The translations under genes and the position numbers were made by a program. From Paludibacter sp. (GTDB lineage Bacteria; Bacteroidota; Bacteroidia; Bacteroidales; Paludibacteraceae), in assembly GCA_028690665.1 (NCBI GenBank), contig JAQVAV010000002.1, positions 310,001-374,000 on the forward strand: DNA of 64,000 bases. The letters run 5' to 3'. Shown in pieces: positions 38,159 to 54,248 of the stretch. Within the stretch, counting starts at the first letter, position 1; each line of letters opens with the position of its first letter. Under the pieces are notes generated by a model. It saw nothing but the letters and a program-made list of their open reading frames with translations. It was not told the origin of the DNA and made no database searches.

Positions 38159-38887
38159 TTATTTGCATGAATTTAAATTTGATTTTGCAAATTCGGTTAC
38201 ACCCCGTAAATGTTCTTTCATTAGTTTTACAGCCAAATCACCATCCCGGTTTTTAATTGCTTTAAGCATTTCCTCGTGCTCTTTCACAACTTCCGGATTA
38301 GGATCACAAATGCGGTCCCGCAAATATATTTTCATAATGTCCGGTATAATAATCATTAACATCGCTTTGGAAACCGGGTTATGACTTCCCTCTGCAATAG
38401 CACGGTGAAAGGCAAAATCGTGACTTACTCTGTCCGGAGAGTCAAAGTACTTCACAAAATTCTCATGGGTGTGCTCCAGTATTTCCATATCTTGAGGTGT
38501 ATATCTTTCCGCACATAGTTTTACTACATGTTCTTCCAAAATCAATCTTGTTTCAACAAGCGAGAAGAAATCATAAGTTTGCAGATTTAATACATCCGAA
38601 ATCAGACCATCAAGTGTTGTAATATCCAACCCGTTTATTACCGAACCACTTTGAGGTAATGTTTTAACTATCCCGTAGAATTCCAGTTTATGCAATGCTT
38701 CTCTGATTTGGGCCCTGCCCACACCGAAATCTGATGCTAATTTTCGCTCAGAAGGTAATCTGTCTCCTGGTTTAATTTGACCGGAGTTAATAAGTTCTTT
38801 AATGTTTTCAATGACTATGTCTGCTGTTTTTGTTTCAAAAACATTGTCTAGATTGAAGGTTGCCATTGATAGCGAATTTTCTTCCAT
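38159..38887 (-). CDS. GntR-family (FCD subfamily) regulator of alginate use
   Basis: This 242-aa protein has an N-terminal winged helix (about 18-90, with the GDRLPSERKLASDFGVGRAQIREAL signature split over two helices) and a C-terminal all-helical FCD ligand domain (about 105-235, with SHDFAFHRAIAEGSHN). FCD regulators such as ExuR and UxuR sense uronates. The DNA motif repeated at locus promoters, TTGGTNNACCAA, has the form known for ExuR/UxuR. One degenerate copy lies upstream of its own promoter. It probably represses until an unsaturated uronate, DEH or KDG binds. The start could also be at codon 8. Confidence 0.92.
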   Translation of the reverse strand: MEENSLSMATFNLDNVFETKTADIVIENIKELINSGQIKPGDRLPSERKLASDFGVGRAQIREALHKLEFYGIVKTLPQSGSVINGLDITTLDGLISDVLNLQTYDFFSLVETRLILEEHVVKLCAERYTPQDMEILEHTHENFVKYFDSPDRVSHDFAFHRAIAEGSHNPVSKAMLMIIIPDIMKIYLRDRICDPNPEVVKEHEEMLKAIKNRDGDLAVKLMKEHLRGVTEFAKSNLNSCK

Positions 38888-39222: not shown

Positions 39223-40584
39223 ATGGCTGTAGTCGTAATTATGCCCAAACAGGGGCAATCTGTCGAAACCTGTATTATCTCTGAGATAAAAAAGAAAAAA
39301 GGAGATGCTGTAGCAAAAGGGGAGATTCTGTTCTCTTACGAAACCGATAAAGCTTCTTTCGAAGAAGAATCGCCGGCTGATGGAGTCGTACTTGAATGTT
39401 TTTACAATGATGGTGACGAAGTGCCTGTATTGCAAAACATGATGGTGATCGGGCAACCGGGAGAAGATTATACGGCATTATTAGGAGATGTAGCTCCAAC
39501 TTCAGAGAGCCAGGAGCCAGAAATCAAGAATCAGGACATAGAATCTGCAAAGGAGCCTCAGGCTATCGTTGAAAACAGTCACGATGAACCTCAATTGACC
39601 AATCAACCCACCAACCCATCAACTTTTATCAGTCCACGCGCCAAAGTATTAGCAGAAAAAGAAGCCTTGGATTATTCGTCGATTGCAGGTTCAGGTCCTA
39701 AGGGTCGTATTATAGAAAAAGATGTATTGGCTGTGCTCGAAAGCCGTCCTAAACTTACTCCGCTTGCAAAGAAAATTGCTGCCGAAGAAGGAGTACAACC
39801 TCAGGGCAGCGGTTCTGGACTGGCAGGAACAGCAAAATCGGTCGATTTACTTCCACCGCCGGTAAATACAGTTTACGGAGTGGATTACGAAGACAAAAAA
39901 TTGTCGAACATGCGTAAGATTATTGCCAAATCTATGCATGCGTCATTACAAAATTCAGCTCAGCTTACTCACCATCTCGGTGCCGATGCACGACGTATAC
40001 AGGCATTACGTAAAAAAGCCAAAAAAGCATTCGAAGCAGGAACTCTTTCGGCAAATCTTACCATAAATGATTTTGTTTGCTTTGCCGTAATCAAAGCGTT
40101 GAAGAAATTCCCGAATGTGAATTCTCACTTCTTGGGCGACAGCATGCGTCTATTTAGCAAAGTACATCTTGGATTAGCCGTGGATACAGATCGTGGATTA
40201 ATGGTTCCGGCTGTCCGTAATGCAGACGATTTGTCTATTATCGGTTTGTCAAATCAGCTGAAAGAAATTGCCAATGCCTGCAAAAAAGGTTCGATATCAC
40301 CTGAATTGTTATCGTCGGAAGCGGCTTCATTTACCGTGTCAAATCTCGGAAATTATGGCGTTGAGATATTTACTCCGGTCATCAATCTGCCGCAATCGGC
40401 TATTTTGGGCGTGAATACCATTGTTCCGCGTCCGAAAGATTTGGGCGATGGTGTTTATGGTTTTGTGCCTTATATTGGTCTCAGCCTTACTTACGATCAT
40501 CGGGCTTTAGATGGGGGAGAAGCTACCCGTTTTCTGAAACAAATTGCTATTGAGATAGAGACATTGGAGCTGGATATATTTTAA
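39223..40584 (+). CDS. E2 dihydrolipoamide acyltransferase of a 2-oxo acid dehydrogenase
   Basis: This 453-aa protein has one lipoyl domain (1-78) with the lipoylated Lys43 in ETDKAS. An acidic and then Pro/Thr-rich linker follows, then a peripheral-subunit-binding domain (about 138-175, SPRAKVLAEK and GPKGRI) and a catalytic acyltransferase domain from about 225 with YDHRALDGG near the C-terminus. It takes acyl groups from E1 and passes them to CoA. The same cluster encodes E3 and a fused E1, and lipoate ligase further on, so a whole complex can be made. Whether it uses pyruvate, branched-chain oxo acids or acetoin cannot be read from the sequence. Confidence 0.92.
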   Translation: MAVVVIMPKQGQSVETCIISEIKKKKGDAVAKGEILFSYETDKASFEEESPADGVVLECFYNDGDEVPVLQNMMVIGQPGEDYTALLGDVAPTSESQEPEIKNQDIESAKEPQAIVENSHDEPQLTNQPTNPSTFISPRAKVLAEKEALDYSSIAGSGPKGRIIEKDVLAVLESRPKLTPLAKKIAAEEGVQPQGSGSGLAGTAKSVDLLPPPVNTVYGVDYEDKKLSNMRKIIAKSMHASLQNSAQLTHHLGADARRIQALRKKAKKAFEAGTLSANLTINDFVCFAVIKALKKFPNVNSHFLGDSMRLFSKVHLGLAVDTDRGLMVPAVRNADDLSIIGLSNQLKEIANACKKGSISPELLSSEAASFTVSNLGNYGVEIFTPVINLPQSAILGVNTIVPRPKDLGDGVYGFVPYIGLSLTYDHRALDGGEATRFLKQIAIEIETLELDIF

Positions 40585-40750: not shown

Positions 40751-42106
40751 ATGTACGATTTAATGATTGTCGGCGGTGGTCCTGCCGGATATGTTGCAGC
40801 AGAACGGGCTGGTCATAAAGGACTTAATGTACTGCTTTTCGAAAAAAACAAAATGGGTGGCGTATGTTTAAATGAAGGGTGTATCCCGACAAAAACGTTG
40901 CTTTATAGTGCGAAAACTTATGATAATGCATTACACGGAGATAAATATGGTGTGTATGCAGAACAGGTGAGTTTCGATTTTGGTAAAATCATGGCGCGTA
41001 AAAATAAAGTAGTGCGCAAGTTGGTTGCCGGGGTCGAAAGTAAAATGAAGCTGAACCACGTGACTGTCGTAAAAGGTGAAGCTACGATTGTCGGACGCAG
41101 CCCGAAAGGAGTTGAAGTGACTTGTGCCGGCGAGAGCTATCTGGGAGCCAACCTGCTTATATGTACAGGTTCGGAAGCATTTGTTCCGCCTATTCCAGGT
41201 TTGGCGGAAGCCGGAGATATGATTGTAACCAACCGTGAAATTCTGGAATTGAAGGAACAGCCCAAATCGTTGGTGATCATTGGCGGTGGTGTAATCGGGA
41301 TGGAGTTTGCCAGCTTTTATAACAGCCTTGGAACGGAGGTAACTGTTGTAGAAATGTTACCTGAAATTTTGGGAGCAAATGACTTCGAAATTTCTGCCAT
41401 GCTTCGTGACATGTATGCGAAAAAAGGAATCAACTTCAATTTGAATTCCAAAGTGATGAAAATTGAAGGGAATAAAGTGATTTTTGAAAAAGATGGACAA
41501 ATGCAGACTGTTGAAGGCGAAAAAATACTTGTAAGTGTAGGCCGCCGGGCCGTTACTATGGGCTTCGGATTGGAAAATCTGAATGTTGAGTTAGTGAAAG
41601 GAGGCATTAAAGTAGATGAAAAAATGCGTACCAATGTTCCCGGAGTGTTTGCTGCCGGTGATGTTACAGGATTTTCTCTGTTGGCCCATACTGCCAGTCG
41701 TGAAGGCGAAGTGGTTGTCAATAATCTGCTGGGACGTGCTGATAGTATGCGTTACAATGCAATTCCCGGAGTAGTTTATACCAATCCCGAAGTGGCCGGA
41801 GTCGGGGAGACCGAAGAATCTGCCAAGTCCAAAGGTATAGCGTACAAAGTGGCAAAACTCCCTATGGCTTATGCTGGACGTTTTATAGCTGAAAACGAAG
41901 GAGGATCCGGACTTTGTAAAGTCTTGGTGGGTGAAAAGTACGGCGAAGTTATAGGCGTACATATAATAGGAAACCCGTCGAGCGAAATGATTTATGGTGC
42001 TTGTATGGCTATCGAACAGGAAATGACCGTTGAAGAATTACAGGAAGTTGTCTTCCCGCATCCAACAGTGAGTGAGATATTTAAAGAAACGATATTTACA
42101 ATATGA
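40751..42106 (+). CDS. lpdA: E3 dihydrolipoamide dehydrogenase
   Basis: This 451-aa flavoprotein has the FAD motif GGGPAGYVAAERA (8-20), the redox disulfide Cys39/Cys44 in GGVCLNEGCIPTK, an NAD motif GGGVIGMEFAS near residue 178, a second FAD motif with VFAAGDV near 300, and a C-terminal HPTVSE active-site His. It reoxidises the lipoyl arm of E2 with NAD+. It lies between E2 and E1 on the same strand but is separated from both by palindromic elements. Confidence 0.95.
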   Translation: MYDLMIVGGGPAGYVAAERAGHKGLNVLLFEKNKMGGVCLNEGCIPTKTLLYSAKTYDNALHGDKYGVYAEQVSFDFGKIMARKNKVVRKLVAGVESKMKLNHVTVVKGEATIVGRSPKGVEVTCAGESYLGANLLICTGSEAFVPPIPGLAEAGDMIVTNREILELKEQPKSLVIIGGGVIGMEFASFYNSLGTEVTVVEMLPEILGANDFEISAMLRDMYAKKGINFNLNSKVMKIEGNKVIFEKDGQMQTVEGEKILVSVGRRAVTMGFGLENLNVELVKGGIKVDEKMRTNVPGVFAAGDVTGFSLLAHTASREGEVVVNNLLGRADSMRYNAIPGVVYTNPEVAGVGETEESAKSKGIAYKVAKLPMAYAGRFIAENEGGSGLCKVLVGEKYGEVIGVHIIGNPSSEMIYGACMAIEQEMTVEELQEVVFPHPTVSEIFKETIFTI

Positions 42107-42201: not shown

Positions 42202-42218
42202 ATACATCTAATACAACC

Positions 42219-44678
42219 ATGCCAAAAATCCAATTTATCAATCCGGCAGATGTCCGGAAACCTGGAATGATCGAGTTTCAACCTATTCCGGTGAACCAGT
42301 ATCAGAAAACCGTAAAGGACGAAAAAGGTAATTTTACGGATGAAGAATTCAAGGCTATTTATCATGATATGGTATTGATTCGTGAGTTTGAAACCATGTT
42401 GAACCTCATCAAAACAAAGGGTGAGTACAATGGAACTGCCTACAATCATCCCGGTCCGGCGCATTTGTCTATCGGACAGGAATCTGCGGCTGTTGGAATG
42501 GCCTGGACATTGACGGTTGACGATTTTATTTTCGGCAGTCATCGTTCACACGGGGAAATTCTTGCCAAAGGTATGTCGGCTATTCATAAATTGGATGACA
42601 AAGAGTTGATGAATATTATGGAGTCTTTCTTTGATGGCGCAGTACTCAATGTAGTAAAAAAAGATTTCAACGGTACTACGAAGGAATTGGCCCGTCGTTT
42701 TCTTGTTTACGGAACTTTGTCCGAAATTTTTGCACGTGAGACAGGTTTCAATCGTGGCTTAGGAGGATCGATGCACGCATTTTTTACTCCGTTCGGGGTG
42801 TATCCGAATAATGCTATTGTGGGTGGTTCCGGCGATATTGCCGTGGGTGCTGCATTGTATAAAAAAGTGAATCGCAAACCGGGTATGGTGGTCGCCAATA
42901 TCGGAGATGCTTCCATGGCTTGCGGCCCTGTTTGGGAAGGACTTTCGTTCGCTGCCATGGATCAGTTTACCCAACTTTGGGAAGGCGATATGAAAGGTGG
43001 TCTTCCGGTTATTATTAATATTATGAATAATCAATACGGAATGGGTGGACAGACTTGTGGCGAAACCATGGGATACGGTATCGCTGCCCGTATTGGCGCC
43101 GGAGTAAATGCTGATCAAATGCATGCCGAACGTGTGGACGGTTACAATCCACTGGCTGTGATTGATGCCTACAAACGTAAACGTAAAATTATAGAAGAAA
43201 AACGCGGTCCGGTATTGTTGGATGTGCTTACATACCGTTATAGCGGACATTCACCTTCCGATGCATCGTCATATCGTTCAAAAGAAGAGGTGGAAGCATG
43301 GGAAAAACAGGATTGTATCGTTTCGTATGGCGAGCAGTTAGTTGATGCAGGAGTGGCTTCTCAAGACGATTTGGATGCCATTCAGATAGACATTAAGGCA
43401 TTGGTTTATGATATTTTCCTAAAAGCCATTGATGAGGAAACTTCTCCGCGAATGAGTAATCCGGATATAATTGGTAATATGATGTTTTCGAATGGTTCGG
43501 TGGATTCGTTCTCGGATGCTAAACCGGATGTACTGATGCCGATGGAAGAAAATTTACGGGTAAAGAAAATTGCCAATAAAGAACGTTTTGCTTTCGATGC
43601 CGAGGGGAAGCCATTCAGTAAAATGAAGCAGTTCCAGCTACGCGATGGTATTTTTGAAGCTATGATGGATCGCTTTTATAAAGATGCTTCACTCATTGCT
43701 TATGGAGAAGAAAACCGTGATTGGGGAGGTGCTTTTGCCGTTTACGGCGGTATGACCGAAGCATTGCCTTATCATCGTTTGTTCAATTCTCCGATTTCCG
43801 AAGCTTCGATTATTGGTACTGCTATTGGTTATGCTATGTGTGGCGGACGTGTGGTACCTGAAATTATGTATTGCGACTTTTTGGGTCGTTGTGGCGATGA
43901 GGTATTTAATCAACTTCCGAAATGGCAGGCAATGAGTGGTAACGTACTCAAAATGCCTGTTGTGGTACGTGTTTCTGTGGGTTCAAAATATGGAGCGCAA
44001 CACTCTCAGGATTGGACTTCGCTTGTGGCCCAGATTCCGGGTATCAAAGTTTGTTTCCCGGTGACTCCTTACGATGCCAAGGGTTTGATGAACTCAGCTC
44101 TTCAGGGAACCGACCCGGTGATTTTTTTCGAAAGTCAGCGTATTTACGAAATAGGGGAGCAATTTCATGATGGTGGTGTGCCCGAAGGTTATTACGAAAT
44201 TCCGTTCGGAGAACCCGATGTAAAGAAGTCTGGAAAAGATATTACCTTCCTGACCATTGGTCATACGCTTTATCCAGCTTTGACAGCAGCAAAAGAATTA
44301 GAAGAAAAATACGGCATGAGTGCCGAGGTGATTGATGCACGCAGTCTGACCCCGTTTAATTACGAAAAGGTAGTGGAGTCGGTGAAGAAAACCGGCAAAA
44401 TTATCGTCGCAAGCGATGCCACCACCCGGGGCTCGTTTCTCAACGATTTAGCGGCTAATATCAGTCAACTTTGTTTCGATTATTTGGATGCTCCGGTTTG
44501 TGTGCTTGGTTCGCGTAACTGGATTACTCCGGCCTTTGAATTAGAAAAAGCATTCTTTGCACAACCGTCGTGGTTTTTAGACATGATTAACGAACGTATC
44601 CAGCCATTGACAGGCTATGTGCCAGGCGAAAATTTTACGGATGCTGAGTTTATAAGAAGATCCAAAATGGGAGTATAA
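42219..44678 (+). CDS. Fused E1 alpha-beta subunit of a 2-oxo acid dehydrogenase
   Basis: This 819-aa protein joins both halves of a thiamine-diphosphate E1. The alpha part (about 45-420) has GSHRSHGE, a GDASMACG motif and MNNQYGMGG for the cofactor and its metal. The beta part (from about 470) has SEASIIGTAIG with the catalytic-type Glu and GAQHSQDW. An extra segment near residues 125-165, between the substrate loop and the cofactor motif, is longer than in usual E1 alpha chains. Decarboxylation of a 2-oxo acid and reductive acylation of E2 are expected. Fused E1 genes are common in Bacteroidota. The substrate is unknown. Confidence 0.92.
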   Translation: MPKIQFINPADVRKPGMIEFQPIPVNQYQKTVKDEKGNFTDEEFKAIYHDMVLIREFETMLNLIKTKGEYNGTAYNHPGPAHLSIGQESAAVGMAWTLTVDDFIFGSHRSHGEILAKGMSAIHKLDDKELMNIMESFFDGAVLNVVKKDFNGTTKELARRFLVYGTLSEIFARETGFNRGLGGSMHAFFTPFGVYPNNAIVGGSGDIAVGAALYKKVNRKPGMVVANIGDASMACGPVWEGLSFAAMDQFTQLWEGDMKGGLPVIINIMNNQYGMGGQTCGETMGYGIAARIGAGVNADQMHAERVDGYNPLAVIDAYKRKRKIIEEKRGPVLLDVLTYRYSGHSPSDASSYRSKEEVEAWEKQDCIVSYGEQLVDAGVASQDDLDAIQIDIKALVYDIFLKAIDEETSPRMSNPDIIGNMMFSNGSVDSFSDAKPDVLMPMEENLRVKKIANKERFAFDAEGKPFSKMKQFQLRDGIFEAMMDRFYKDASLIAYGEENRDWGGAFAVYGGMTEALPYHRLFNSPISEASIIGTAIGYAMCGGRVVPEIMYCDFLGRCGDEVFNQLPKWQAMSGNVLKMPVVVRVSVGSKYGAQHSQDWTSLVAQIPGIKVCFPVTPYDAKGLMNSALQGTDPVIFFESQRIYEIGEQFHDGGVPEGYYEIPFGEPDVKKSGKDITFLTIGHTLYPALTAAKELEEKYGMSAEVIDARSLTPFNYEKVVESVKKTGKIIVASDATTRGSFLNDLAANISQLCFDYLDAPVCVLGSRNWITPAFELEKAFFAQPSWFLDMINERIQPLTGYVPGENFTDAEFIRRSKMGV

Positions 44679-44689
44679 ATTTATTCACT

Positions 44690-44848: not shown

Positions 44849-44951
44849 GTGAATAAAATTATACGACCATAACTTTAAATCGAAAAACAATTGACCTTTA
44901 ATAAACTTTAAGCATCTGCTTCCGGATGCCTTAAAGACTTAATCTAATATC

Positions 44952-46103
44952 ATGAAAAAAGTAAATGCACACCTGCATTCGCCTTACTCGTTCAGTGCTT
45001 TCAAAAATATCGATGAGGCCTTGGATATCGCTTTGGCTGATAATGTAAAGGTGGTGGGAATCAATGATTTTTATAGTGCTGCCGGATATAAGGAATGGGC
45101 TGAAGGTTGCAAAAAACGTGGCTTGTATCCGCTTTTCAATATCGAATTTATTTCGCTTAATGAAACTGATCAGAAAGCCGGATTGAGAGTGAACGACCCC
45201 AGAAATCCTGGTCGAACTTACCTGAGTGGTAAAGGACTTTCGTATCCGTTTAAACTTAGCGAACCTTATGTATCGCAATTGGCGGGAGTTATTCATGAGT
45301 CGAATGCTCAGGTGGAAGCCATGTGTGCTAAAGTCAATGAGATTCTGGCCGCAAATAATTCCGGATTTTTGCTGGATTTTGAATGGATTAAAAAGGAATT
45401 GACCAATGGTTTGATTCGAGAGCGCCATTTGGCAAAAGCGATTCGTGTGAAAGCTTATGAATACTGCCGCAATAATCCGCTTGACCTTCGTTTATTATTT
45501 TATAAACTTTTTGGTGGAAAACAAATCAAATCGGAGATTACAGATTTTGCTGGTGTCGAAAACGAAATTCGTGGAAATATGCTGAAAGCCGGTGGAGCTG
45601 CTTTCGTTCCGGAAGATCCGAAAGCTTTTTTGCCGATGCAAATCGTTTGCGATATCATTGTTGCTGGTGGCGGTATTCCGACTTATCCATTTTTAGCTGA
45701 CGATGCTAAAGGTGAATATACTGATTTTGAAGGTGATCTAAAACGGGTTGCAAAACAACTGACCGAACGCGGTTTTCATTCGGTAGAGTTTATTACAACC
45801 CGCAACGATGTAAAGTTACTCGAAAAGTATGCATCGTATTTATACGATCAGGGATTTGTGGTGACTTTCGGAAGCGAACATAATACGCCGGCTATGGAAC
45901 CTGTTGAACTTTTTGCCCGGAATAAAGCTCCTCTGACTGAACGCTTGATGCAAATTAATTATGATGGCGCTTGTGTGGTGGCTGCTCATCAATATCTGGT
46001 TTCTCAGGGAAAGTCCGGATATGTCGACGACAAGGGCTTCGCCGACAGACGTAAACGGGAAGAGTTTGTAAAATTAGGTAAAAAACTGATTGAAGTTTCC
46101 TAA
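44952..46103 (+). CDS. PHP-domain phosphoesterase
   Basis: This 383-aa protein starts with the PHP metal motif NAHLHSPYSFS (His7, His9) and ends its barrel with GSEHNTPAMEP, another metal-binding element. No polymerase domain is attached. PHP enzymes include histidinol phosphatase and other phosphoesterases. Here it may remove phosphate from a sugar phosphate made by the aldolase/reductase genes downstream, but that is inference from position. The family (PHP next to a class II aldolase-SDR fusion) is not one I can name. Its stop codon lies inside a half-copy of repeat C. Confidence 0.78.
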   Translation: MKKVNAHLHSPYSFSAFKNIDEALDIALADNVKVVGINDFYSAAGYKEWAEGCKKRGLYPLFNIEFISLNETDQKAGLRVNDPRNPGRTYLSGKGLSYPFKLSEPYVSQLAGVIHESNAQVEAMCAKVNEILAANNSGFLLDFEWIKKELTNGLIRERHLAKAIRVKAYEYCRNNPLDLRLLFYKLFGGKQIKSEITDFAGVENEIRGNMLKAGGAAFVPEDPKAFLPMQIVCDIIVAGGGIPTYPFLADDAKGEYTDFEGDLKRVAKQLTERGFHSVEFITTRNDVKLLEKYASYLYDQGFVVTFGSEHNTPAMEPVELFARNKAPLTERLMQINYDGACVVAAHQYLVSQGKSGYVDDKGFADRRKREEFVKLGKKLIEVS

Positions 46104-46118
46104 CTACAAAAGGGGAAC
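46099..46118. repeat. Half-copy of inverted-repeat element C
   Basis: CCTAACTACAAAAGGGGAAC matches the left arm of copy 1 (CTAACCCCAAAAGGGGAA). No right arm is found before the next gene. The PHP stop codon is part of it. Confidence 0.5.
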
Positions 46119-46260
46119 AATAGAAATTCTCCGGGCTTATAGTAATATTATTTGAATTTTATGACTATAGCTAGATTGAAGTATTGAATATTAGATTTAT
46201 TCTCGAAATTGTGTGCTCATAATTGATTACTATATTGAGAAAGTTATAAAAGATTAATTC

Positions 46261-46268
46261 TAACTTTG
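46261..46268 (+). promoter_or_regulatory. -7 element for the 244-aa gene
   Basis: TAACTTTG fits TAnnTTTG and lies 21 bp before the ATG; a TTG at 46235-46237 is 23 bp upstream, slightly long. It suggests that the 244-aa gene has its own transcription start. Confidence 0.5.
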
Positions 46269-46289
46269 ATGCTCAAAAGTACATAAGTT

Positions 46290-47024
46290 ATGAATAGAAG
46301 AATATGTTTATCTCTGTTTTTTATATTGCTGATTTGTTTCAGCTTAATGAGTCAAACCGACAAAATAAGGATTGCCTTAGTATCTCAGGTTGATGCAGGT
46401 TTTGCATTGTTGAAATGTAAAGAAAATCCTGATTTTTTGCGTTATCGAACTGAATATACATTTGTACAATCAGAGATTTTTGATTTTGATATAAAAGAAA
46501 AATGGCTTGAATTTTTCAGAATGAATCTTGATTCGGATAAATACGAAATCCGATTTGAAGCAATGCCGGAAGAAGTTAAAGATAATTATTTGTTTAGTAT
46601 TTATAAGGGAACTAACGGATTTGGACACGCAAGTTCAAAACTCAAAAAATGGTTTTCCGAATTGTATGAAAATAACGGATATGATATAGTTATTATGTTA
46701 TTTAAAGCAATTTTAGATTCAAGGTATTCCGCTATTTTCGAGTTGAATCAATATCCTCCATGCGGTGTAATACAGAATGAAAACTGGATATACTCGTTGT
46801 ATAATATAAACGTTTATCAATCCCGAGATGGTAAAATTTTGTTTCGGAAAAAGTCAGGTGGGTATAATGATTATCTCAGAACACTGAAGAAAGTAAATTT
46901 ATCCAAATTGTCTTTTAATGAAATTACGGAAGAGGATTTAGAACCAGCTATTGATGAAATTGTAATGATGAATAGTGATGTAGGGAGAAAGATTTGTAAA
47001 AGAATCATTGCTTATAGCAATTAA
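46290..47024 (+). CDS. Exported protein of unknown function
   Basis: This 244-aa protein has a signal peptide (about 1-21, ending SLMSQT). The rest is soluble, rich in Asn, Lys, Tyr and Phe, with a segment FSELYENNGYDIVIMLFKA and later GKILFRKKSGG. I recognise no domain or catalytic motif. The gene is more AT-rich than its neighbours, has its own -7 element and interrupts a run of metabolic genes. This looks like an insertion into the cluster. Its position after a half-repeat C supports that. Confidence 0.65.
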   Translation: MNRRICLSLFFILLICFSLMSQTDKIRIALVSQVDAGFALLKCKENPDFLRYRTEYTFVQSEIFDFDIKEKWLEFFRMNLDSDKYEIRFEAMPEEVKDNYLFSIYKGTNGFGHASSKLKKWFSELYENNGYDIVIMLFKAILDSRYSAIFELNQYPPCGVIQNENWIYSLYNINVYQSRDGKILFRKKSGGYNDYLRTLKKVNLSKLSFNEITEEDLEPAIDEIVMMNSDVGRKICKRIIAYSN

Positions 47025-47062
47025 TATTGAGAAATTTATGGAGATAGTATTCTAATTATAAT

Positions 47063-49036
47063 ATGAAAGAAATACAAGAACTAATTGAAATATCGCAATT
47101 TTATGGGAGTGACAGCCGTTTTGTGATTGCGGGGGGAGGGAATACCTCTTATAAAAATGCAGAGAAAATCTGGGTAAAAGCCAGTGGTTCATCTCTGGCA
47201 ACTATTACCGAAGATGGTTTTGCAATACTCGATCGAGCCAAACTAAATCTCATGTCAGACAAAGTTTACAGTGCTGATACAGCCAAACGTGAAGAGCAGG
47301 TCAAAAACGATTTGGCGGATGCTACGATTACCAAAGGCAAACGTCCATCGGTGGAAACATCTATGCATAATGTTATTGACTATGCTTTTGTGGTGCATTT
47401 ACACCCAACAGCTGTAAACGGTTTAATGTGCGCTCAAAATGCCGAATCGGATTTGAAAAAACTGTTCGGTGAAAAAGCATTGTATATCGAATATACCGAT
47501 CCGGGTTATGTGTTGTTCAAAAAAGTAGAAGATGAGATTAAGTCATTCCGTGCAACTTCTCAGGAAGAACCTCAGGTAATCTGGTTGCAGAATCATGGTA
47601 TTTTTGTGGGTGCTAACAGCATTGCAGAAATCAAAGAAATATATGCTCAAATTATAGATACACTTGGCAAAGAGAGTGTTCGACTCCCTAATGAAAGTGG
47701 TGAAGTTCCCCTTATAGAGGGGCTAGGGAGTGTCGAGCAAATTGTTCCGGCTCTTCGAATGATGTTGTCGAAAGATGGTTTGAAAACGCTGAAAGTCCGT
47801 AAAAATGAACTTATCAAGTTTTATTATGATAGTGTTGAAGAGCAAGCCAATATTGTTCGTCCATTTTCGCCGGATGCTATCGTTTATTGTAAATCGAACT
47901 ATATTTTCCTGAATAAAGAGAAGCCCGAAGCAGTGATTGCTGAAGCAGCAAAACAAATTCCAGCTTTCTCGGCTAAGTTTGGATATCAGCCCAAAGTTAT
48001 TCTGATAAAAGGAATCGGAATCGTGGCGGTTGGCGATAATGCTAAACAGTGCGACATTATTCTCGATGTTTTTGAAGATTCGATGAAGATTGCTTATTTG
48101 TCGAAATCATTCGGTGGAGCTCACCCTATGACACAGAAACAAATTGACTTTATAGATAACTGGGAAGTGGAGAATTATCGTCGCAGTGTGGCAGCCGGAG
48201 GAGTTGCCGGTCGTGCCGAAAACAAAAACATTGTGGTGACAGGAGCTGCTCAGGGTTTTGGTGAGGGTATTGCCCGTTGTTTGTTGCAGCAAGGTGCGAA
48301 CATTGTGGTGGCCGACCTGAATGAGTCTGTTGGACAGGCAACCGTATTGCGTTTTAATAAACTGGCTAAAAGTAACCGAGCCATTTTTGTAAAAACAAAT
48401 GTGAGTGAAATTCCGAGTATTGAAAATTTGATACATGAAACAGTTTGTAATTTCGGAGCGATTGATTGCTTTATCAGTAATGCAGGTGTACTTCGTGCCG
48501 GAGGATTAGATGATATGACACCGGAAAATTTTGAATTTGTAACCAAAATCAATTATAACGCTTATTTCTATTGTACTAAAGTAGTTAGTCGTGTAATGAA
48601 GTTGCAAACTAAATACGCCGTTTCAAATTATTATGCCGATGTGATTCAGATAAACTCAAAATCGGGACTTCGAGGCAGTAAAGCCAACTTTGCCTATGCA
48701 GGAGGAAAATTTGGAGGAATCGGACTGACACAATCATTTGCACTCGAATTGGCTCCGTTCCGTATCAAAGTAAATTCCATTTGCCCGGGTAATTTTTACG
48801 AAGGTCCGCTCTGGAGCGATCCGGAAAACGGGCTTTTTGTACAATACCTGCATGCGGGGAAAGTACCGGGAGCCAAAACGGTAGAAGACGTCAAAGCATT
48901 TTATTTAGCTCAGGTTCCTATGCAAAAAGGTTGTTCTCCCGAAGATGTAACTAAAGGAGCACTTTACCTGATGGAACAATGTGGCGAAACCGGTCAGGCT
49001 TTACCGATTACCGGAGGCCAGGTGATGCTGAGTTGA
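47063..49036 (+). CDS. Class II aldolase fused to a SorD/SrlD-like dehydrogenase
   Basis: This 657-aa protein joins two enzymes. Residues 1-215 are a class II (RhaD/FucA-type) aldolase with GGGNTSYK, a zinc motif HLHP preceded by VETSMHN, and QNHGIFVG for the third histidine. Residues 220-380 are a linker or half-aldolase region. Residues 390-657 are an SDR with TGAAQGFGEG, SNAG, QINSKSG and Tyr-x3-Lys (YAGGK). The SDR part resembles sorbitol-6-phosphate dehydrogenase SrlD/SorD (QINSKSG, AKFGG-like and ITGGQVM endings). Rhamnulose-1-phosphate aldolase/dehydrogenase fusions are known at about 690-700 aa; this one is shorter. DHAP-type ketose phosphate cleavage and hexitol phosphate oxidation are inferred. 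Confidence 0.85.
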   Translation: MKEIQELIEISQFYGSDSRFVIAGGGNTSYKNAEKIWVKASGSSLATITEDGFAILDRAKLNLMSDKVYSADTAKREEQVKNDLADATITKGKRPSVETSMHNVIDYAFVVHLHPTAVNGLMCAQNAESDLKKLFGEKALYIEYTDPGYVLFKKVEDEIKSFRATSQEEPQVIWLQNHGIFVGANSIAEIKEIYAQIIDTLGKESVRLPNESGEVPLIEGLGSVEQIVPALRMMLSKDGLKTLKVRKNELIKFYYDSVEEQANIVRPFSPDAIVYCKSNYIFLNKEKPEAVIAEAAKQIPAFSAKFGYQPKVILIKGIGIVAVGDNAKQCDIILDVFEDSMKIAYLSKSFGGAHPMTQKQIDFIDNWEVENYRRSVAAGGVAGRAENKNIVVTGAAQGFGEGIARCLLQQGANIVVADLNESVGQATVLRFNKLAKSNRAIFVKTNVSEIPSIENLIHETVCNFGAIDCFISNAGVLRAGGLDDMTPENFEFVTKINYNAYFYCTKVVSRVMKLQTKYAVSNYYADVIQINSKSGLRGSKANFAYAGGKFGGIGLTQSFALELAPFRIKVNSICPGNFYEGPLWSDPENGLFVQYLHAGKVPGAKTVEDVKAFYLAQVPMQKGCSPEDVTKGALYLMEQCGETGQALPITGGQVMLS

Positions 49037-49168
49037 CCCTCTGGCCCCTAAAGGGGTGGCTTTCGGGTGTTTGCATAAATTAAAAGTATTATTAATATAA
49101 ACAATAAAATTCTCTAAATGGAACTTTAAGAAACGAAAGTAACTTAGTTCCCCTTTAGGGGTTAGGGG
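49037..49168. repeat. Inverted-repeat element C, copy 2
   Basis: GGCCCCTAAAGGGGTGG at the left and CCCCTTTAGGGGTTAGGGG at the right are inverted copies. It fills the gap between the fusion gene and the SorE-like gene and ends 4 bp before the next ATG, so it overlaps the ribosome-binding region. Confidence 0.8.
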
Positions 49169-49172
49169 TAAC

Positions 49173-50447
49173 ATGAACACCAAAGCAATTCGTTTATATG
49201 GCAAAAAAGATCTTCGGATGGAAGAATTTGAATTGCCGCAAATTAAAGAGAATGAAATTCTTGCAAAAGTAGTTTCGGATTCTCTGTGTATGTCATCTTA
49301 TAAAGCTACAAATCAGGGGACTGATCACAAAAGAATTCCGGATGATGTGGCTGAAAAACCAATTATTATTGGGCATGAGTTTGCCGGAGAATTGGTCGAA
49401 GTTGGAGCAAAATGGGCACATAAGTTTAAAGCGGGTGATAAATTTTCAATTCAGCCTGCTTTATATTATGAATATGGTCCGGTAGGTGTTTTAAGTGCTC
49501 CCGGATATAGTTATCAGTATATTGGTGGTGATGCAACTTATATTATAATTCCGAATGAAGTTATGGAGAAAGATTGTCTGCTGCCTTTTAAAGGGGAAGG
49601 GTTTTATCCGGCATCTCTATCCGAACCTCTTTCGTGTGTGATTGGTACAATGCATGCTGTGTATCATACAACTCCGGGTAGTTATATTCACAAAATGGAT
49701 ATTACACCCGGAGGTAAAATGGCAATTCTTGCAGGAGTTGGGCCCATGGGCTTAGCTGCTATCAATTATGCCTTGAGGCGTGAGGATATAAAACCTGCTT
49801 TATTGGTTGTTACTGATGTTAACCAGGCCCGTCTCGACAGAGCAGCTCAAATCTACACGGTCGAATTTGCAGCTTCGAGAGGCATTGACCTGCGTTATAT
49901 AAATACTGGTTCGATGCAAAACCCGGCTGAAGAATTGAAGGCTCTTACTGGTGGCACAGGTTACAATGAAGTGTTGGTCTTTGCCCCTGTAAAACCCGTT
50001 GTTGAACAGGCCGATGCGATATTGGCATTTGATGGTTGTTTAAACTTTTTTGCAGGTCCGAGTGATCCTAATTTTAGTGCTATGTTTAATTTCTACAATG
50101 TGCACTATGCTTATACTCATGTGGTTGGAACCAGCGGTGGAAACACCGATGACATGATTGAAGCACTTGATATGATGAGTGGAGGTTTGGATCCGGCAGG
50201 TCTGGTTACACATATAGGAGGACTGAATGCGGTAATTGAAGCAACGAAACATTTGCCTGATATTCCAGGAGGTAAAAAATTGATCTATACTCATATAACC
50301 ATGCCATTGACGCCGATTGGTGATTTTGCAAAATTGGGTGAAACTAACGAAGTTTTTAAAAAGTTAGCAGAAATATGTGACAAAAATATGGGCTTGTGGA
50401 GCATTGAAGCTGAAAGTTATTTGTTGGCTAATGCTGATAAACTTTGA
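49173..50447 (+). CDS. SorE-like zinc dehydrogenase (L-sorbose-1-phosphate reductase family)
   Basis: This 424-aa medium-chain dehydrogenase has SDSLCMSSYKATNQG, IIIGHEFAGE (zinc-ligand region), a nucleotide-binding GVGPMGLAA near residue 190, and FNFYNVHYAYTHVVGTSGGNTDD near 310. These are hallmarks of L-sorbose-1-phosphate reductase (SorE). SorE makes glucitol-6-phosphate from sorbose-1-phosphate, and SorD oxidises that to fructose-6-phosphate. A SorD-like domain is fused to the aldolase just upstream, so the pair is kept together as in Klebsiella sor operons. The true ketose phosphate is unknown. A terminator follows. Confidence 0.87.
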   Translation: MNTKAIRLYGKKDLRMEEFELPQIKENEILAKVVSDSLCMSSYKATNQGTDHKRIPDDVAEKPIIIGHEFAGELVEVGAKWAHKFKAGDKFSIQPALYYEYGPVGVLSAPGYSYQYIGGDATYIIIPNEVMEKDCLLPFKGEGFYPASLSEPLSCVIGTMHAVYHTTPGSYIHKMDITPGGKMAILAGVGPMGLAAINYALRREDIKPALLVVTDVNQARLDRAAQIYTVEFAASRGIDLRYINTGSMQNPAEELKALTGGTGYNEVLVFAPVKPVVEQADAILAFDGCLNFFAGPSDPNFSAMFNFYNVHYAYTHVVGTSGGNTDDMIEALDMMSGGLDPAGLVTHIGGLNAVIEATKHLPDIPGGKKLIYTHITMPLTPIGDFAKLGETNEVFKKLAEICDKNMGLWSIEAESYLLANADKL

Positions 50448-50457
50448 GAATATTGAA

Positions 50458-50511
50458 GTGAACTTTGTATGAGTTTGGATTTTTCCGGCTTTGCAAAGTT
50501 CATTTTTTTTA
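50458..50511 (+). terminator. Terminator after the SorE-like gene
   Basis: Nine-base arms TGAACTTTG and CAAAGTTCA, 27-nt loop, then a run of eight T. It ends the unit that includes the fusion and SorE-like genes. Confidence 0.7.
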
Positions 50512-50601
50512 TAAAATAGTTTCGTTGAAATAAAGACTCATTTTGCCGTTTTTTACAGTTCTAATATCATTTTTCTAAATATCCGGATGATTTGTTTGTC
50601 G

Positions 50602-50609
50602 TAATTTTG
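50602..50609 (+). promoter_or_regulatory. -7 element of the tandem aldolase gene
   Basis: TAATTTTG fits TAnnTTTG, with a leader of about 30 nt to the ATG at 50644. Together with the terminator upstream it marks a new transcription unit. Confidence 0.5.
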
Positions 50610-50643
50610 CACCCAGGTAAAACATAATTTAAAATAAAAAATA

Positions 50644-51942
50644 ATGAAACAACTTGATGTGAAATTCATGCACCCGATGGAACAAATTAATGTTATTATC
50701 GGGCGAATTTACAGAAGTGGAATGACTACTACTTCGGGTGGAAATATTTCCATTATGGACGATAACGGAGATATTTGGATTACTCCTTCGGGCATTGATA
50801 AGGGGTCGCTTACTGTGAATGATATTATTTGCATGAAAAAGGATGGTACAAAAATAGGCCCTCATAAGCCATCGTCAGAATATCCTTTTCATAAAGCAAT
50901 TTATGAAGCACGCCCTGAAATAAAAGCAATTATACATGCTCATCCACCGGCATTAGTTGCATTCAGTATTGCGCGCCAGGTGCCGGATACTAATATTGTT
51001 CCTCAGGCAAAAAAAATCTGTGGCGAAATCGGTTACGCGCCTTATGGTTGTCCAGGAAGCGAAGATCTTGGACGAAAAATTGCTGAACAGTTTAAAAACA
51101 AACAATATAAAGCTGTGATTATGGAAAATCACGGTGTGGTGTTGGGTGGAACCGATATGATGGATGCTTACCAGCGTTTCGAAACACTCGAATTCTGCTG
51201 TCGTACCATTGTCAACGCAGGTAAATTGGGTAAAGTAAATACACTGACTGATCAGCAAATCGACGCTTATATCAATCATTTTCCTAAGAATGTCAATCAT
51301 TATATGGATGTACAATATCCATCGGATGAACGCATAATCCGTAGTGATATGGTAAAAATGATTCGTCGCGCCTGCGATCAGGGATTGATGATTTCTACTT
51401 ACGGAACTGTTTCCGTCCGCTGGAAAAATAACGATTTCTTGATTACTCCCCGTGATGTTGCCCGTTGGGATATTCAACCCAAGGAAATTGTTCAGATTAA
51501 AAATGGCATGGCCGAAGCAGGAAAAGTGCCAAGTCGTTCTGTTGCACTGCATCACCGTATTTATCAGTTGAATCCGCATATCAATTCCATTATCATGACT
51601 CAGCCGACAAACCTTATGGCTCATGCGGTGAGCGGAACCAAGTTTGATGTACGTACTATTCCCGAAAGCTGGATTTTTTTGCAGGATGTTCCTTCCATTC
51701 CTTTCAGCATGCTTTATGGCGATGTTGACGAAGTGGCGAAATTATTCTCTAAAAACAGAGTTGTGCTGGTTGAAAATGACAGTGTTATTGTTACCGGCGA
51801 TAAATTACTGAATACATTCGATTATCTTGAGGTTGCCGAATTCTCGGCAAATTCATTGGTAATGGCTTCTTCAATCGGCCCGCTTCAGCCAATGGGTGAT
51901 GCTGAAATAGATGAACTTAGAATTGCCTTCAACGTAAAATAA
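50644..51942 (+). CDS. Tandem class II aldolase, second domain degenerate
   Basis: This 432-aa protein has two class II aldolase/adducin domains. The first (about 10-190) keeps GGNIS (32-36), Glu79, the zinc pair His98/His100 (HAHPPA) and His163 (ENHGVV), as in FucA and RhaD. The second (about 230-425) has STYGTVSV for the glycine loop, MTQP where the HAHP zinc pair should be (318-321), and VENDSVIV in place of ENHG, so it cannot bind zinc. The first half should be an active DHAP- or aldehyde-forming aldolase and the second a regulatory or assembly domain. Neighbouring FucO points to lactaldehyde as a product. Confidence 0.85.
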   Translation: MKQLDVKFMHPMEQINVIIGRIYRSGMTTTSGGNISIMDDNGDIWITPSGIDKGSLTVNDIICMKKDGTKIGPHKPSSEYPFHKAIYEARPEIKAIIHAHPPALVAFSIARQVPDTNIVPQAKKICGEIGYAPYGCPGSEDLGRKIAEQFKNKQYKAVIMENHGVVLGGTDMMDAYQRFETLEFCCRTIVNAGKLGKVNTLTDQQIDAYINHFPKNVNHYMDVQYPSDERIIRSDMVKMIRRACDQGLMISTYGTVSVRWKNNDFLITPRDVARWDIQPKEIVQIKNGMAEAGKVPSRSVALHHRIYQLNPHINSIIMTQPTNLMAHAVSGTKFDVRTIPESWIFLQDVPSIPFSMLYGDVDEVAKLFSKNRVVLVENDSVIVTGDKLLNTFDYLEVAEFSANSLVMASSIGPLQPMGDAEIDELRIAFNVK

Positions 51943-51958
51943 ACGTACCAAATAAAGA

Positions 51959-52108
51959 GAGGATGTCCAATAAGTGCTTATTCTGAACACAAATTCCGCA
52001 AATCGCACAAATCTACGCAAATTTAATTTGCATTATTGACACATTATCAATAACTTATGATTTGTGTTAATTTGCGGAATTTGCGTTTTTTTTTCTTTTT
52101 TAGACACC
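51959..52108. repeat. Dispersed repeat family A, copy 3
   Basis: It aligns almost end to end with the copy at 15463-15613 (GATGTCCAATAAGTG at the left, TTTTTAGACACC at the right), with an inverted relation between the two ends. It lies between the tandem aldolase and fucO genes. Confidence 0.85.
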
Positions 52109-52174
52109 TTTTTTATTGTATGGTGATTAAAATCAGCTTATATTTTTTATTCATAAATAGATTAAAATACGGAA

Positions 52175-53332
52175 ATGAGTATTCAAAGATTTGTATTAAA
52201 TGAAACATCTTGGTTTGGACCGGGATGCCGTTCGGTATTAGCCGATGAAATTAAAAAAAGAGGGTTCAAAAAAGTATTGGTCGTTACAGATAATGATTTA
52301 GTAAAGTTTAATGTAGCCGCACAGGTTACATCTGTTCTTGAAGCAGGAAATATCCCGTTTCAGATGTTTACGGATGTAAAACAAAACCCGACTGTTAAGC
52401 AGGTGAAAGCAGGGGTTGCCGAGTTTCAAAAGTCCGGGGCAGATGTAATTGTTGCTATTGGCGGAGGTTCGCCGATTGACACAGCAAAAGCTATTGGGAT
52501 TATTTCTAATAATCCGGAGTTTGCCGATGTTGTTTCTTTGGAAGGAGTCGCTAATACGAAAAATAAATCGGTTCCGGTGATTGCGTTACCAACAACGGCC
52601 GGTACTGCTGCCGAGGTCACTATCAACTATGTAATTACAGATGAGGAAAATGTGAAGAAAATGGTTTGTGTCGACCCTAACGATATTCCTGTTATGTCCA
52701 TTGTTGATGCCGAGCTTATGCTGAGTATGCCCAAAGGCCTGACCGCTGCAACCGGTATGGATGCACTGACACATGCTATCGAAGGATATATTACCAAAGG
52801 AGCCTGGGCAATGTCGGATATGTTTGAACTGAAAGCTGTTGAGTTGATTGCTAAATATCTTCCTCAGGTTGTGGAAAATCCGAAAAACGTTGAAGCCCGT
52901 GATAGTATGGCGGTTGCTCAGTACATTGCAGGTATGGGATTTTCGAATGTAGGTTTAGGTTTGGTGCATGGAATGGCTCATCCGCTCGGTGCATATTTTG
53001 ATGTGCCTCATGGCGTTGCAAATGCCCTTTTGTTGCCTACAATCATGCAATTTAATATGGAAGCCGCTGTTGATAAATATGTGGATATTGCCAAAGCTAT
53101 GGGGGTTGATGTGACAGGGATGAGTAAAGAAGTTGCTGCTCAGGCAGCTGTAGATGCAGTGAAAACTCTTGCAGTGAAAGTAGGAATTCCGGCAACTTTA
53201 CGCGATCTGAACGTTCCGGAAGATGGCCTTGAAAAACTGTCTGTGTCTGCATTCAACGATGTATGTACTCCCGGAAATCCACGTGATGTAAAGCAGGAAG
53301 AAATATTGGAACTTTATAAAAAGGTATACTAA
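52175..53332 (+). CDS. fucO: Lactaldehyde reductase (iron-dependent alcohol dehydrogenase)
   Basis: This 385-aa protein closely matches E. coli FucO along its length, for example in RFVLNETSWFG, IGGGSPIDT (NAD-binding, near 95-103), LPTTAGTAAEVTINYVITDEE and the metal region. The iron ligands Asp196, His200, His265 and His279 are at the expected spacing. It reduces L-lactaldehyde to 1,2-propanediol with NADH, recycling NAD+ during fucose or rhamnose fermentation. It follows the tandem aldolase gene across a repeat A element and is ended by a strong terminator. Confidence 0.93.
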   Translation: MSIQRFVLNETSWFGPGCRSVLADEIKKRGFKKVLVVTDNDLVKFNVAAQVTSVLEAGNIPFQMFTDVKQNPTVKQVKAGVAEFQKSGADVIVAIGGGSPIDTAKAIGIISNNPEFADVVSLEGVANTKNKSVPVIALPTTAGTAAEVTINYVITDEENVKKMVCVDPNDIPVMSIVDAELMLSMPKGLTAATGMDALTHAIEGYITKGAWAMSDMFELKAVELIAKYLPQVVENPKNVEARDSMAVAQYIAGMGFSNVGLGLVHGMAHPLGAYFDVPHGVANALLLPTIMQFNMEAAVDKYVDIAKAMGVDVTGMSKEVAAQAAVDAVKTLAVKVGIPATLRDLNVPEDGLEKLSVSAFNDVCTPGNPRDVKQEEILELYKKVY

Positions 53333-53364
53333 ATTGTACTAATTGAATTGTATTTTATGTCTTT

Positions 53365-53400
53365 AAAACGTCTGATTGAGTTGTATCGTCAGACGTTTTT
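53365..53400 (+). terminator. Terminator after fucO
   Basis: AAAACGTCTGA and TCAGACGTTTT arms with a 13-nt loop, followed by TTCTTATTTTT. It overlaps the -33 element of the lplA promoter. Confidence 0.85.
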
Positions 53401-53410
53401 CTTATTTTTG
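53381..53410 (+). promoter_or_regulatory. Promoter of the lipoate ligase gene
   Basis: TTG (53381-53383), 19 bp, TATTTTTG (53403-53410) fit the consensus. The TTG is inside the loop of the fucO terminator hairpin, so lplA is a separate unit. Confidence 0.75.
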
Positions 53411-53433
53411 TTATCTGCATTTTAAATTTTACC

Positions 53434-54156
53434 ATGAAAATCATACATTCTTCATCGTTATCACCTGCTGTTAATTTAGCCACAGAGGAATTCCTTTTTT
53501 ATGAGTCGGAGGATGATATGCTTTTTTTTTATGTTAACCTGCCTTCTGTGATAATTGGTTCGAATCAGGTAGTACAAAATGAAGTGAATATCGATTTTTG
53601 CCGGAAGTATAATATCGAAATTATTCGCAGAATGTCGGGTGGGGGAGCCGTCTATCATGACACGGGAAACCTGAACTACAGTTTTATTACCAACCGAAAA
53701 CAAGATCAATCGGCACTAAGCGATGAATTTCTACATCCGGTTGTTGAAGTTTTGAAAGAATTAAATGTTCCTGTCGTTATTGGTACACGAAAAGATTTAT
53801 GGCTGTCCGGATCCAAAGTTAGCGGAACGGCTTCGCACGTAAGCAAAAACAGGGAATTGCATCATGGAACACTTCTGTTTGATGCCAGTCTGGAAAATTT
53901 ACATCGGGCATTGAATGCCATAAATACAGATCTGTCCGTTAAGGGTACGGCTTCGGTATCAAGTCAGGTAATGAATATCTCCGAATATTTGAGAATGAAT
54001 AAAAGTTCACTTGATATGAACACATTCCGACAGAAGTTTATAAGTGCCTGTGAATGCCGGTTTACTTCAAAATCGGAACCATTTTTCCTGAACGAAAATA
54101 TCAATAAACTTGTTTTAGAAAAATATCAGACTCAGGAGTGGAATTTTAAAAAATAA
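53434..54156 (+). CDS. lplA: Lipoate-protein ligase A
   Basis: This 240-aa BPL/LplA-type catalytic domain has RRMSGGGAVYHDTGNLNYSF at about residues 65-84, the lipoate-binding loop, and a VSGTASH motif near 126. The small C-terminal domain of E. coli LplA is reduced here. It activates lipoate with ATP and attaches it to lipoyl lysines, in this context Lys43 of the E2 encoded at 39223. It lies on the same strand as the complex genes but has its own promoter. Confidence 0.88.
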   Translation: MKIIHSSSLSPAVNLATEEFLFYESEDDMLFFYVNLPSVIIGSNQVVQNEVNIDFCRKYNIEIIRRMSGGGAVYHDTGNLNYSFITNRKQDQSALSDEFLHPVVEVLKELNVPVVIGTRKDLWLSGSKVSGTASHVSKNRELHHGTLLFDASLENLHRALNAINTDLSVKGTASVSSQVMNISEYLRMNKSSLDMNTFRQKFISACECRFTSKSEPFFLNENINKLVLEKYQTQEWNFKK

Positions 54157-54248
54157 CGACTTGTTTTCTGATTTTGTTTGTCAATCTTGATAAGAAGTGC
54201 CCTGATTTTTGTATTTGAAATTCGGTAGCGTCAAAAAAATATATAAAA

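Follow-up and report, generated by a model that had tools for sequence, protein, structure and literature searches.

A conserved gene unit joining SrlD- and SorE-like enzymes to a lipoyl complex in Paludibacter, and a proposed 6-deoxyhexose route to acetyl-CoA

The window, a stretch of 64,000 nucleotides from a Paludibacter sp. contig (JAQVAV010000002.1, positions 310,001 to 374,000; assembly GCA_028690665.1), raises the question of which pathway is served by a class II aldolase fused to a short-chain dehydrogenase/reductase (SDR) and encoded directly before a SorE-like reductase. The four open reading frames (ORFs) described in the initial annotation were all located, each with an ATG start on the + strand: the 657-aa aldolase-SDR fusion (47063-49036), a SorE/YggP-family zinc reductase (49173-50447, 424 aa), a tandem class II aldolase (50644-51942, 432 aa) and the lactaldehyde reductase FucO (52175-53332, 385 aa). 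It had been stated there that no described pathway was known with this gene set, and in the open-access literature no paper describing it was found. Comparison with relatives demonstrates that the fusion and the reductase belong to a larger conserved unit, which is a 6-deoxyhexose module mostly replacing RhaD and FucO. It is further proposed, with confidence that we place about midway, that this catabolic module acts downstream of an isomerase and a 1-kinase, mostly in place of RhaD/FucA plus FucO, by cleavage of a 1-deoxyketose-6-phosphate to acetyl-CoA.

The conserved core

Conservation was surveyed in 80 loci from genome contigs (54 from Bacteroidota and 26 from other phyla) and in 393 Bacteroidales genomes. 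A genome counted as a carrier if its SorE-like match reached 57% identity or more, and fragments were accepted. Some contigs occur in both locus sets (L017 and L111, for example, share a contig, as do L039 and L113), so that counts are not independent, and many of the stretches are cut short by the end of the contig. The conserved core consists of a lipoyl E2-E3-E1 complex of the 2-oxoacid-dehydrogenase type, a PHP protein, the SrlD-like SDR and the SorE-like reductase. In the window the unit begins upstream of the four genes described first, with E2-E3-E1 at 39223-44678 and PHP at 44952-46103, and a lipoate ligase gene lies downstream. In 40 Bacteroidales stretches around the SorE-like gene (L111-L150), the SDR was present in 32, PHP in 27, E1 in 27 and E2 in 24. 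The 54 Bacteroidota contig loci contained the SDR (45), PHP (37), E1 (35) and the tandem aldolase (39), and the 26 loci from other phyla contained the SDR (14), PHP (12) and E1 (10). The core, or most of it, is found in Bacteroidota, Bacillota, Atribacterota and Spirochaetota. Gene order is variable, for example SorE-SDR-E2-E3-E1-LplA-PHP in L055 and L060. Since these genes recur together in dozens of genomes, the arrangement is not due to chance.

Counts of E1, aldolases and FucO were taken from 80 of 94 genomes, each at least 90% complete; eight carriers and five non-carriers below 90% were dropped, as was G333, the fourth member of its genus. E1 of the window's clade was found in all 43 carriers (in pieces in G058, G197 and G294) versus 2 of 37 non-carriers, one at a contig edge (G014) and one partial (G112). 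Among the 31 genomes behind the contig loci, which are drafts and mostly outside Bacteroidota, 24 had the clade E1 and 20 had RhaA, the L-rhamnose isomerase. For the 14 non-Bacteroidota genomes with an SDR locus the numbers were 13, adjacent or not, and 10.

Within the fusion, Aldolase_II covers residues 6-191 and adh_short residues 388-578; a RhaE-like class II aldolase domain (PF00596) and a middle domain are encoded by 47063..48199 and the SrlD/SorD-like SDR domain by 48209..49036 (both +). The SDR half had been likened to SorD/SrlD, which is borne out by the top solved relative of the fusion, sorbitol-6-phosphate dehydrogenase 5o3z, aligned across the SDR part with 132 bits vs 104 for the runner-up. 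The SDR nevertheless remains below the PRK12384 cut-off (197.4 of 307 bits) and is only 25% identical to Klebsiella SorD. The whole fusion lies below the RhaEW-type cut-offs (TIGR02632, 220 of 567.75 bits; PRK08324, 223 of 1014), and its best annotated plasmid relatives show 23-26% identity. The SorE-like character of the next gene was equally confirmed, with 50.9% identity to annotated Klebsiella SorE over the full 424 aa and 52.5% to E. coli YggP, conserved blocks being shared with both. An SDR without the aldolase domain was observed at twelve loci of the L111-L150 set, at L052 and at six loci from other phyla; four further cases (L013, L016, L018 and L035) were not counted, being contig ends. 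A PHP gene directly precedes the SDR in L118, L126 and L130, which shows that the SDR gene is whole. What stays constant in the fusion is the SDR and not the aldolase. The co-occurrence considered in the initial annotation held for the fusion, the SorE-like gene and PHP, which are conserved together, but not for the tandem aldolase, which is optional.

Rhamnose and fucose genes linked to the unit

RhaA was counted at E < 1e-100, which retained 88 of 90 matching genomes (G111 and G375 were dropped as weak pieces). It was present in 45 of 51 SorE-like carriers versus 43 of 342 non-carriers (Fisher p 6e-28). Among these 88 RhaA genomes, RhaD above cut-off was found in 5/45 carriers and 35/43 non-carriers (p 1.6e-11); the module and classical RhaD are close to mutually exclusive. 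FucI, too, is more frequent in carriers (34/51 vs 54/342, p 2e-13) and was therefore used as a control: in FucI-free genomes, RhaA still occurred in 14/17 carriers vs 25/288 non-carriers (p 1.6e-11). Either RhaA or FucI was present in 48 of the 51 carriers. These genome statistics ignore kinship; counted by family, 18 contain carriers without RhaD, 19 contain non-carriers with it and three (f20, f30 and f72) contain both, and within these three the switches run in the same direction as the overall trend.

Physical linkage points to the same sugars. Relatives adjoin rhaA/rhaB in several genomes but also fuc operons. The order E2-E3-E1-SorE-fusion-PHP-RhaB-RhaA was observed in L062 (RhaA, 671 of 572 bits; RhaB, 498 of 528), and RhaA and RhaB are divergent from PHP in L054. 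In G379 (L161, L123) a run of rhaT, rhaA, a stand-alone RhaE-like aldolase, a kinase, a FucO-like gene, the tandem aldolase and an SDR forms the first part, the second being E2-E3-E1-PHP-SDR-PGP-SorE-FSA, where PGP denotes a phosphoglycolate-phosphatase-like gene. Fucose genes appear as fucI-fucK-fucP-FSA-E2-E3-E1 in G257 and G164, and as fucI-fucK-fucU-fucP followed further on by E2-E3-E1 in G238. Cut-offs were passed by FucI in all three, by FucK and FucP in G257 and G238, and by FucU in G238. In G238 no match was obtained to the tandem aldolase, the RhaE-like aldolase or the RhaD model, that is, to a FucA/RhaD-type aldolase. The adjoining operons tie the substrates to L-rhamnose and L-fucose. 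The absence of a kinase, isomerase and transporter, as described earlier, holds for the stretch but not for the genome: RhaA (644 bits, above cut-off) lies on another contig (L151) with rhamnulokinase-like, RhaT-like and polysaccharide-degrading genes, the RhaT and glycosidase names being given by reading, and two FucI genes are present. No RhaD above cut-off was found in the window genome, and FucO is present.

The aldolases show a looser association. RhaE-like aldolase (E < 1e-60) was found in 38/43 carriers versus 1/37 non-carriers (G014), and stand-alone homologues adjoin rhaA in L153, L161 and L169 and lie about 7 kb away in L152. The tandem aldolase, counted at a minimum of 55% identity over 345 residues, was present in 21/43 carriers and 4/37 non-carriers; G007 and G143 have short remnants of it. 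On these counts the tandem aldolase was rejected as an essential part. It lies at the rhaA locus in L153-L162, carries two Aldolase_II stretches, the second of which, as read from the sequence, is without the usual zinc histidines and acidic residue, and is probably an optional, alternative rhamnulose-1-phosphate aldolase. FucO of the window passed the cut-offs for lactaldehyde reductase (630 vs 537 bits), TIGR02638 included, and the window genome is the only one of the 43 carriers with FucO above cut-off, versus 16 of 37 non-carriers. FucO was present in none of the 54 Bacteroidota contig loci, and two distant matches of 25-27% were found in 66 other loci. FucO was consequently rejected as part of the system, being conserved neither in carriers nor in loci.

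A proposed route and its rivals

The gene set, the rha/fuc linkage, the near-exclusion of RhaD and FucO and the protein families are shown by the data; in the route proposed here on that basis, each substrate and product is inferred. L-rhamnose in this genome, and L-fucose in relatives, would first pass through the isomerase and the 1-kinase. The SorE-like enzyme, a putative 6-deoxyketose-1-phosphate reductase, would then reduce C2 to give a deoxyhexitol phosphate, after which the SrlD-like SDR, proposed to be a 1-deoxyhexitol-6-phosphate dehydrogenase, would oxidise the carbinol beside the methyl group. The product would be a 1-deoxyketose-6-phosphate, CH3-CO-CHOH-R, an acetoin-like acyloin. 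During the last step, E1, as a proposed 1-deoxyketose-phosphate-cleaving enzyme, would act with E2, E3, CoA and NAD+ to release acetyl-CoA and a tetrose phosphate, as for acetoin, the classic case of an E1/E2/E3 substrate that is not an acid. The frame of ketose-1-phosphate chemistry adopted in the initial annotation was judged right. The known SorE/SorD route leads from a ketose-1-phosphate through a hexitol-6-phosphate to a ketose-6-phosphate. As described in the available text of PMC2831201, SorE is L-sorbose-1-phosphate reductase and SorD is glucitol-6-phosphate dehydrogenase. The window resembles the L-sorbose operon of Klebsiella and E. coli CFT073 in placing a SorE-family reductase beside a hexitol-phosphate-type SDR, and differs in a substrate side of 6-deoxyhexose isomerase and kinase and in the coupled acyl-CoA-forming complex.

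Two versions of the route may be considered, and either may apply. In the first, an aldolase would yield dihydroxyacetone phosphate (DHAP) and L-lactaldehyde, which a fructose-type aldolase would rejoin as 6-deoxy-L-sorbose-1-phosphate, of the configuration used by SorE; this would be converted to 1-deoxy-D-fructose-6-phosphate and then to acetyl-CoA and erythrose-4-phosphate, intermediates that rest on our own stereochemical bookkeeping. This version would explain the two aldolases and the TalB gene after the cluster, observed in L024 (502 of 396 bits) with homologues in L030, L041, L045 and, further off, L140. It would perhaps also explain the PGP-like gene (158 of 225 bits in L118), because human PGP, according to the available text of PMC7041631, disposes of 4-phosphoerythronate, which arises from erythrose-4-phosphate as a side product. 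In the second version, rhamnulose- or fuculose-1-phosphate would be used directly, giving acetyl-CoA and threose-4-phosphate, the latter processed by aldolases and PHP/HAD phosphatases. This would fit the FSA-like aldolase, which is below cut-off, and the phosphatases, as well as G238, where a fuc operon adjoins the cluster but no match to the aldolase queries or the RhaD model was obtained.

In the available text of PMC3424233, a mutant E1 of E. coli pyruvate dehydrogenase (PDH) lets 1-deoxyxylulose-5-phosphate form in vivo; this reverse chemistry supports the view that E1 enzymes can handle such compounds. An Enterobacter strain is reported to oxidise L-rhamnitol to 1-deoxy-L-fructose (PMC3869271). 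Stated in full, the proposal is of a hitherto undescribed, propanediol-free fermentation of 6-deoxyhexoses in which a reductase and a dehydrogenase of sorbose type would shift the carbonyl to the position beside the methyl group, and a lipoate complex dedicated to this step, acting as a 1-deoxyketose-phosphate dehydrogenase, would cut the sugar phosphate in the manner of acetoin into acetyl-CoA and a tetrose phosphate; it is put forward tentatively, with rather less than even confidence.

In the complex, the E2 gene (39223..40584, +), encoding a lipoyl domain and an acyltransferase, matches PDH/2-oxoglutarate E2 models, none above cut-off, and E2s in the PDB. E3 dihydrolipoyl dehydrogenase (40751..42106, +) passes TIGR01350 with 497 bits against a cut-off of 408.8. 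E1 (42219..44678, +) is an alpha-beta fusion of the thiamine-diphosphate enzymes. Neither E1 nor E2 passes a curated NCBIfam cut-off, those of the PDH equivalogs being missed by E1beta (217 of 321 bits), E1alpha (191 of 394) and E2 (262 of 722); the top PDB match of E1beta is PDH. In a maximum likelihood tree, calculated without L053, L071 and L075, whose ORFs were not located by script, E1s from Bacteroidota, Clostridia and Limnochordia and four rhizobial E1s form one clade with 100/100 support and a long stem, separate from the PDH, acetoin and branched-chain rows. In an alignment of 27 E1 rows, from which L185 and L186 had been dropped as long branches, H344 and H595 of the window E1, two histidines with a catalytic role, are invariant (27/27), and H595 lines up with the HS motif of PDH E1beta. 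At the active site it is flanked by the clade-specific K590 and D598, an observation that is suggestive only. The acetoin dehydrogenase complex (AcoABC, LpdA, LipA) likewise depends on thiamine and lipoate, has a lipoate supply of its own and is encoded in a catabolic operon, and clade-mates of the window E1 use an AcoC-like E2; unlike it, the window has an E1 alpha-beta fusion in a clade of its own, a PDH-like E2 and a link to sugars.

The rival that survives best, although we judge it unlikely, is a RhaEW-type route, in which the fusion cleaves rhamnulose-1-phosphate and oxidises L-lactaldehyde, lactate passes to pyruvate, and E1/E2/E3 is an ordinary PDH. RhaEW yields lactate and DHAP in the available text of PMC3870299. 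The window fusion shares with RhaEW (B. subtilis YuxG, Chloroflexus) the order of aldolase then SDR domain, a similar length and, in part, the rhamnose link, the stand-alone aldolase adjoins rhaA in three loci, and PDH is the best PDB match of E1beta. However, the RhaEW models reach just 220 of 567 bits and the SDR is nearest SrlD; it is retained where the dispensable aldolase domain has been lost. No role is left for the linked SorE-like and PHP genes, and the linked complex contains an E1 in its own clade, apart from two PDH rows. Matches to pyruvate:ferredoxin oxidoreductase (PFOR) were found in 43/43 carriers, 41 of them above cut-off, so that a second pyruvate enzyme such as PDH is not needed. 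With scores far below the cut-offs, plain RhaEW was rejected as the sole reading of the fusion.

Less credible is a route in which the SDR and the SorE-like enzyme make a C3 product of lactaldehyde (hydroxyacetone or methylglyoxal) that the complex splits into acetyl-CoA and a C1 unit, and we would call it improbable. The aldolase step gives L-lactaldehyde from rhamnose and fucose alike, acetoin-type E1s accept small acyloins, and in L039 (same contig as L113) and L043 a gene read as pyruvate formate-lyase stands directly after the SorE-like gene, apart from the rest of the cluster. Against this, known SorE works on a ketose-1-phosphate, G238 has no FucA/RhaD-type aldolase match, the phosphatases would stay unexplained, and no C1-handling gene was noticed among the widely conserved neighbours, although no model search for such genes was made.

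Less weight again is given to the route read from the four genes initially, in which ketose-1-phosphate, hexitol phosphate and DHAP plus lactaldehyde are interconverted, FucO forms 1,2-propanediol and the complex is a mere neighbour. All its parts lie within the window, and FucO-like and tandem aldolase genes stand side by side in G379 and G096, yet FucO is rare among carriers as given above, and the complex accompanies the unit in every one of the 43 carriers and in 13 of 14 non-Bacteroidota genomes with the SDR locus. DHAP and lactaldehyde can be at most an intermediate stage, and the main partner, E1/E2/E3 with its lipoate supply, had been overlooked. Compared with the classical RhaABD/FucIKA plus FucO systems, the module is likewise linked to RhaA, RhaB, FucI, FucK and FucP, but RhaD (5/45) and FucO (1/43) are rare among carriers. 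That the genes merely share a location without a common pathway, as the varying order among phyla might suggest, is very improbable given their co-occurrence over four phyla and 393 genomes.

Several results weigh against the proposed cleavage of a 1-deoxyketose-6-phosphate. On the side of the complex, the window E2 is PDH/SucB-like, without the AcoC-type alpha/beta-hydrolase fold, and the tree gives the E1 clade no firm sister group, acetoin dehydrogenase included. The SorE-like gene occurs without clade E1 in 7/31 contig-locus genomes (G394, G410, G413, G414, G417, G420 and G422), and no RhaA is shown in 11/31 of these drafts. Five carriers retain RhaD alongside the module, three (G136, G169 and G294) are without RhaA or FucI above cut-off, and FucO of G379 and G096 is only slightly below cut-off (508 and 495 of 523). 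The aldolases differ from one relative to another (RhaE-like, either fused or free; tandem; FSA-like; TalB), an indication that the pathway can be completed by more than one route. The first version requires a FucA/RhaD-type aldolase, seemingly missing in G238, and the second yields an uncommon tetrose. The PHP gene is not accounted for by the proposed steps.

The cluster represents a variant of 6-deoxyhexose catabolism and would be a new kind of pathway if the cleavage were shown. In the available text of a gut-microbiome survey (PMC5583593), 23 genomes, from Bacteroidetes, Clostridia and some Actinobacteria, lack L-fuculose-phosphate aldolase, which is treated as an open problem; the module may provide an answer, and one open to testing, for some cases of this kind, as in G238, where it adjoins a fucI-fucK-fucU-fucP run and no match to a FucA/RhaD-type aldolase was obtained. 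The available part of PMC6620236 contains nothing on lipoate complexes. If the proposal is true, models of rhamnose and fucose fermentation would change, with acetate instead of propanediol arising from the methyl end, lipoate complexes would gain a sugar-cleaving reaction, and the fused E1 clade, now annotated as alpha-ketoacid dehydrogenase, would acquire a function. Chemistry aside, the gene set is a good marker of a rhamnose/fucose route mostly without RhaD and FucO, and its carriers include many gut and sediment bacteria.

Neighbouring genes and related clusters

The PHP-type metal-dependent phosphoesterase (44952..46103, +) scores 25.0 bits with PF02811, slightly below 26.4. Its structure, predicted at high confidence (predicted local distance difference test, pLDDT, 92.7), has RNase AM 9etk and 2yb1 as top Foldseek matches, and it is probably a sugar-phosphate phosphatase. 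In the alignment, NDF in the Bacteroidota proteins stands against MDH in the Bacillota type; one metal-site histidine seems to be replaced in the former. The lipoate-protein ligase gene (53434..54156, +; TIGR00545, 240 bits, below 280) would supply lipoate for E2, and in L057 genes read as LipB and LipA adjoin E2 in place of the ligase. A FadR/GntR-type gene named by reading its sequence (38159..38887, -), a possible regulator, is divergent from the E2 gene, and genes read as GntR likewise lie immediately upstream of E2 in L161 and L191-L193. Between PHP and the fusion, a small ORF (46290..47024, +) lies outside the conserved set; its start resembles a signal peptide, no Pfam/NCBIfam match was obtained at E 0.001 and none was shown in the loci of relatives. 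No match to GatZ/KbaZ subunits was found in the window genome, nor to PTS (phosphotransferase system) families among the 11 ORFs scanned at 39223-55187. Further upstream (649-37967), the genes read as an alginate/uronate utilisation locus (PL6-like, heparinase-like, SDR, MFS, SusC/SusD), names again by reading; in the stretches of relatives that were read, other genes, for example sugar kinases, lie upstream of E2, not alginate-lyase-like ones.

In the search output, the E1 of G294 (G294:C71:24709-26798) is fragmented and interrupted by stop codons, and the cluster is possibly decaying. An MtlD-like gene lies beside the SorE-like gene in L025, L059, L063 and L069, with the idea that it stands in for the SDR there. 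In L025 (2720-10961) an FBA-like (fructose-bisphosphate) aldolase, an isomerase, an FGGY kinase, MtlD-like, SorE-like and E2 genes form a single run, which may be the module adapted to yet another sugar.

The rhizobial E1 genes are 51-53% identical and lie near sugar transporters, kinases and regulators. The rhizobial E2s scanned are of the split acetoin-dehydrogenase type, a lipoyl protein plus an alpha/beta hydrolase, with NF011457 (AcoC-like) as best model, below cut-off (153-202 of 307 bits). If the proposal is true, the occurrence of this E1 clade in sugar operons of rhizobia would amount to a wider class of deoxyketose-cleaving complexes. On plasmids of Rhizobium, Agrobacterium and Pleomorphomonas (L173-L176), sugar operons contain a fused E1, a tiny lipoyl protein and an AcoC-like acyltransferase, the substrate being perhaps a deoxyketose; that of pRL8 (L173) lies near homoserine-type genes. 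On an Arthrobacter plasmid (L184, 1-4642), a class II fructose-bisphosphate aldolase is followed by a more distant fused E1, a lipoyl protein and an FGGY kinase.

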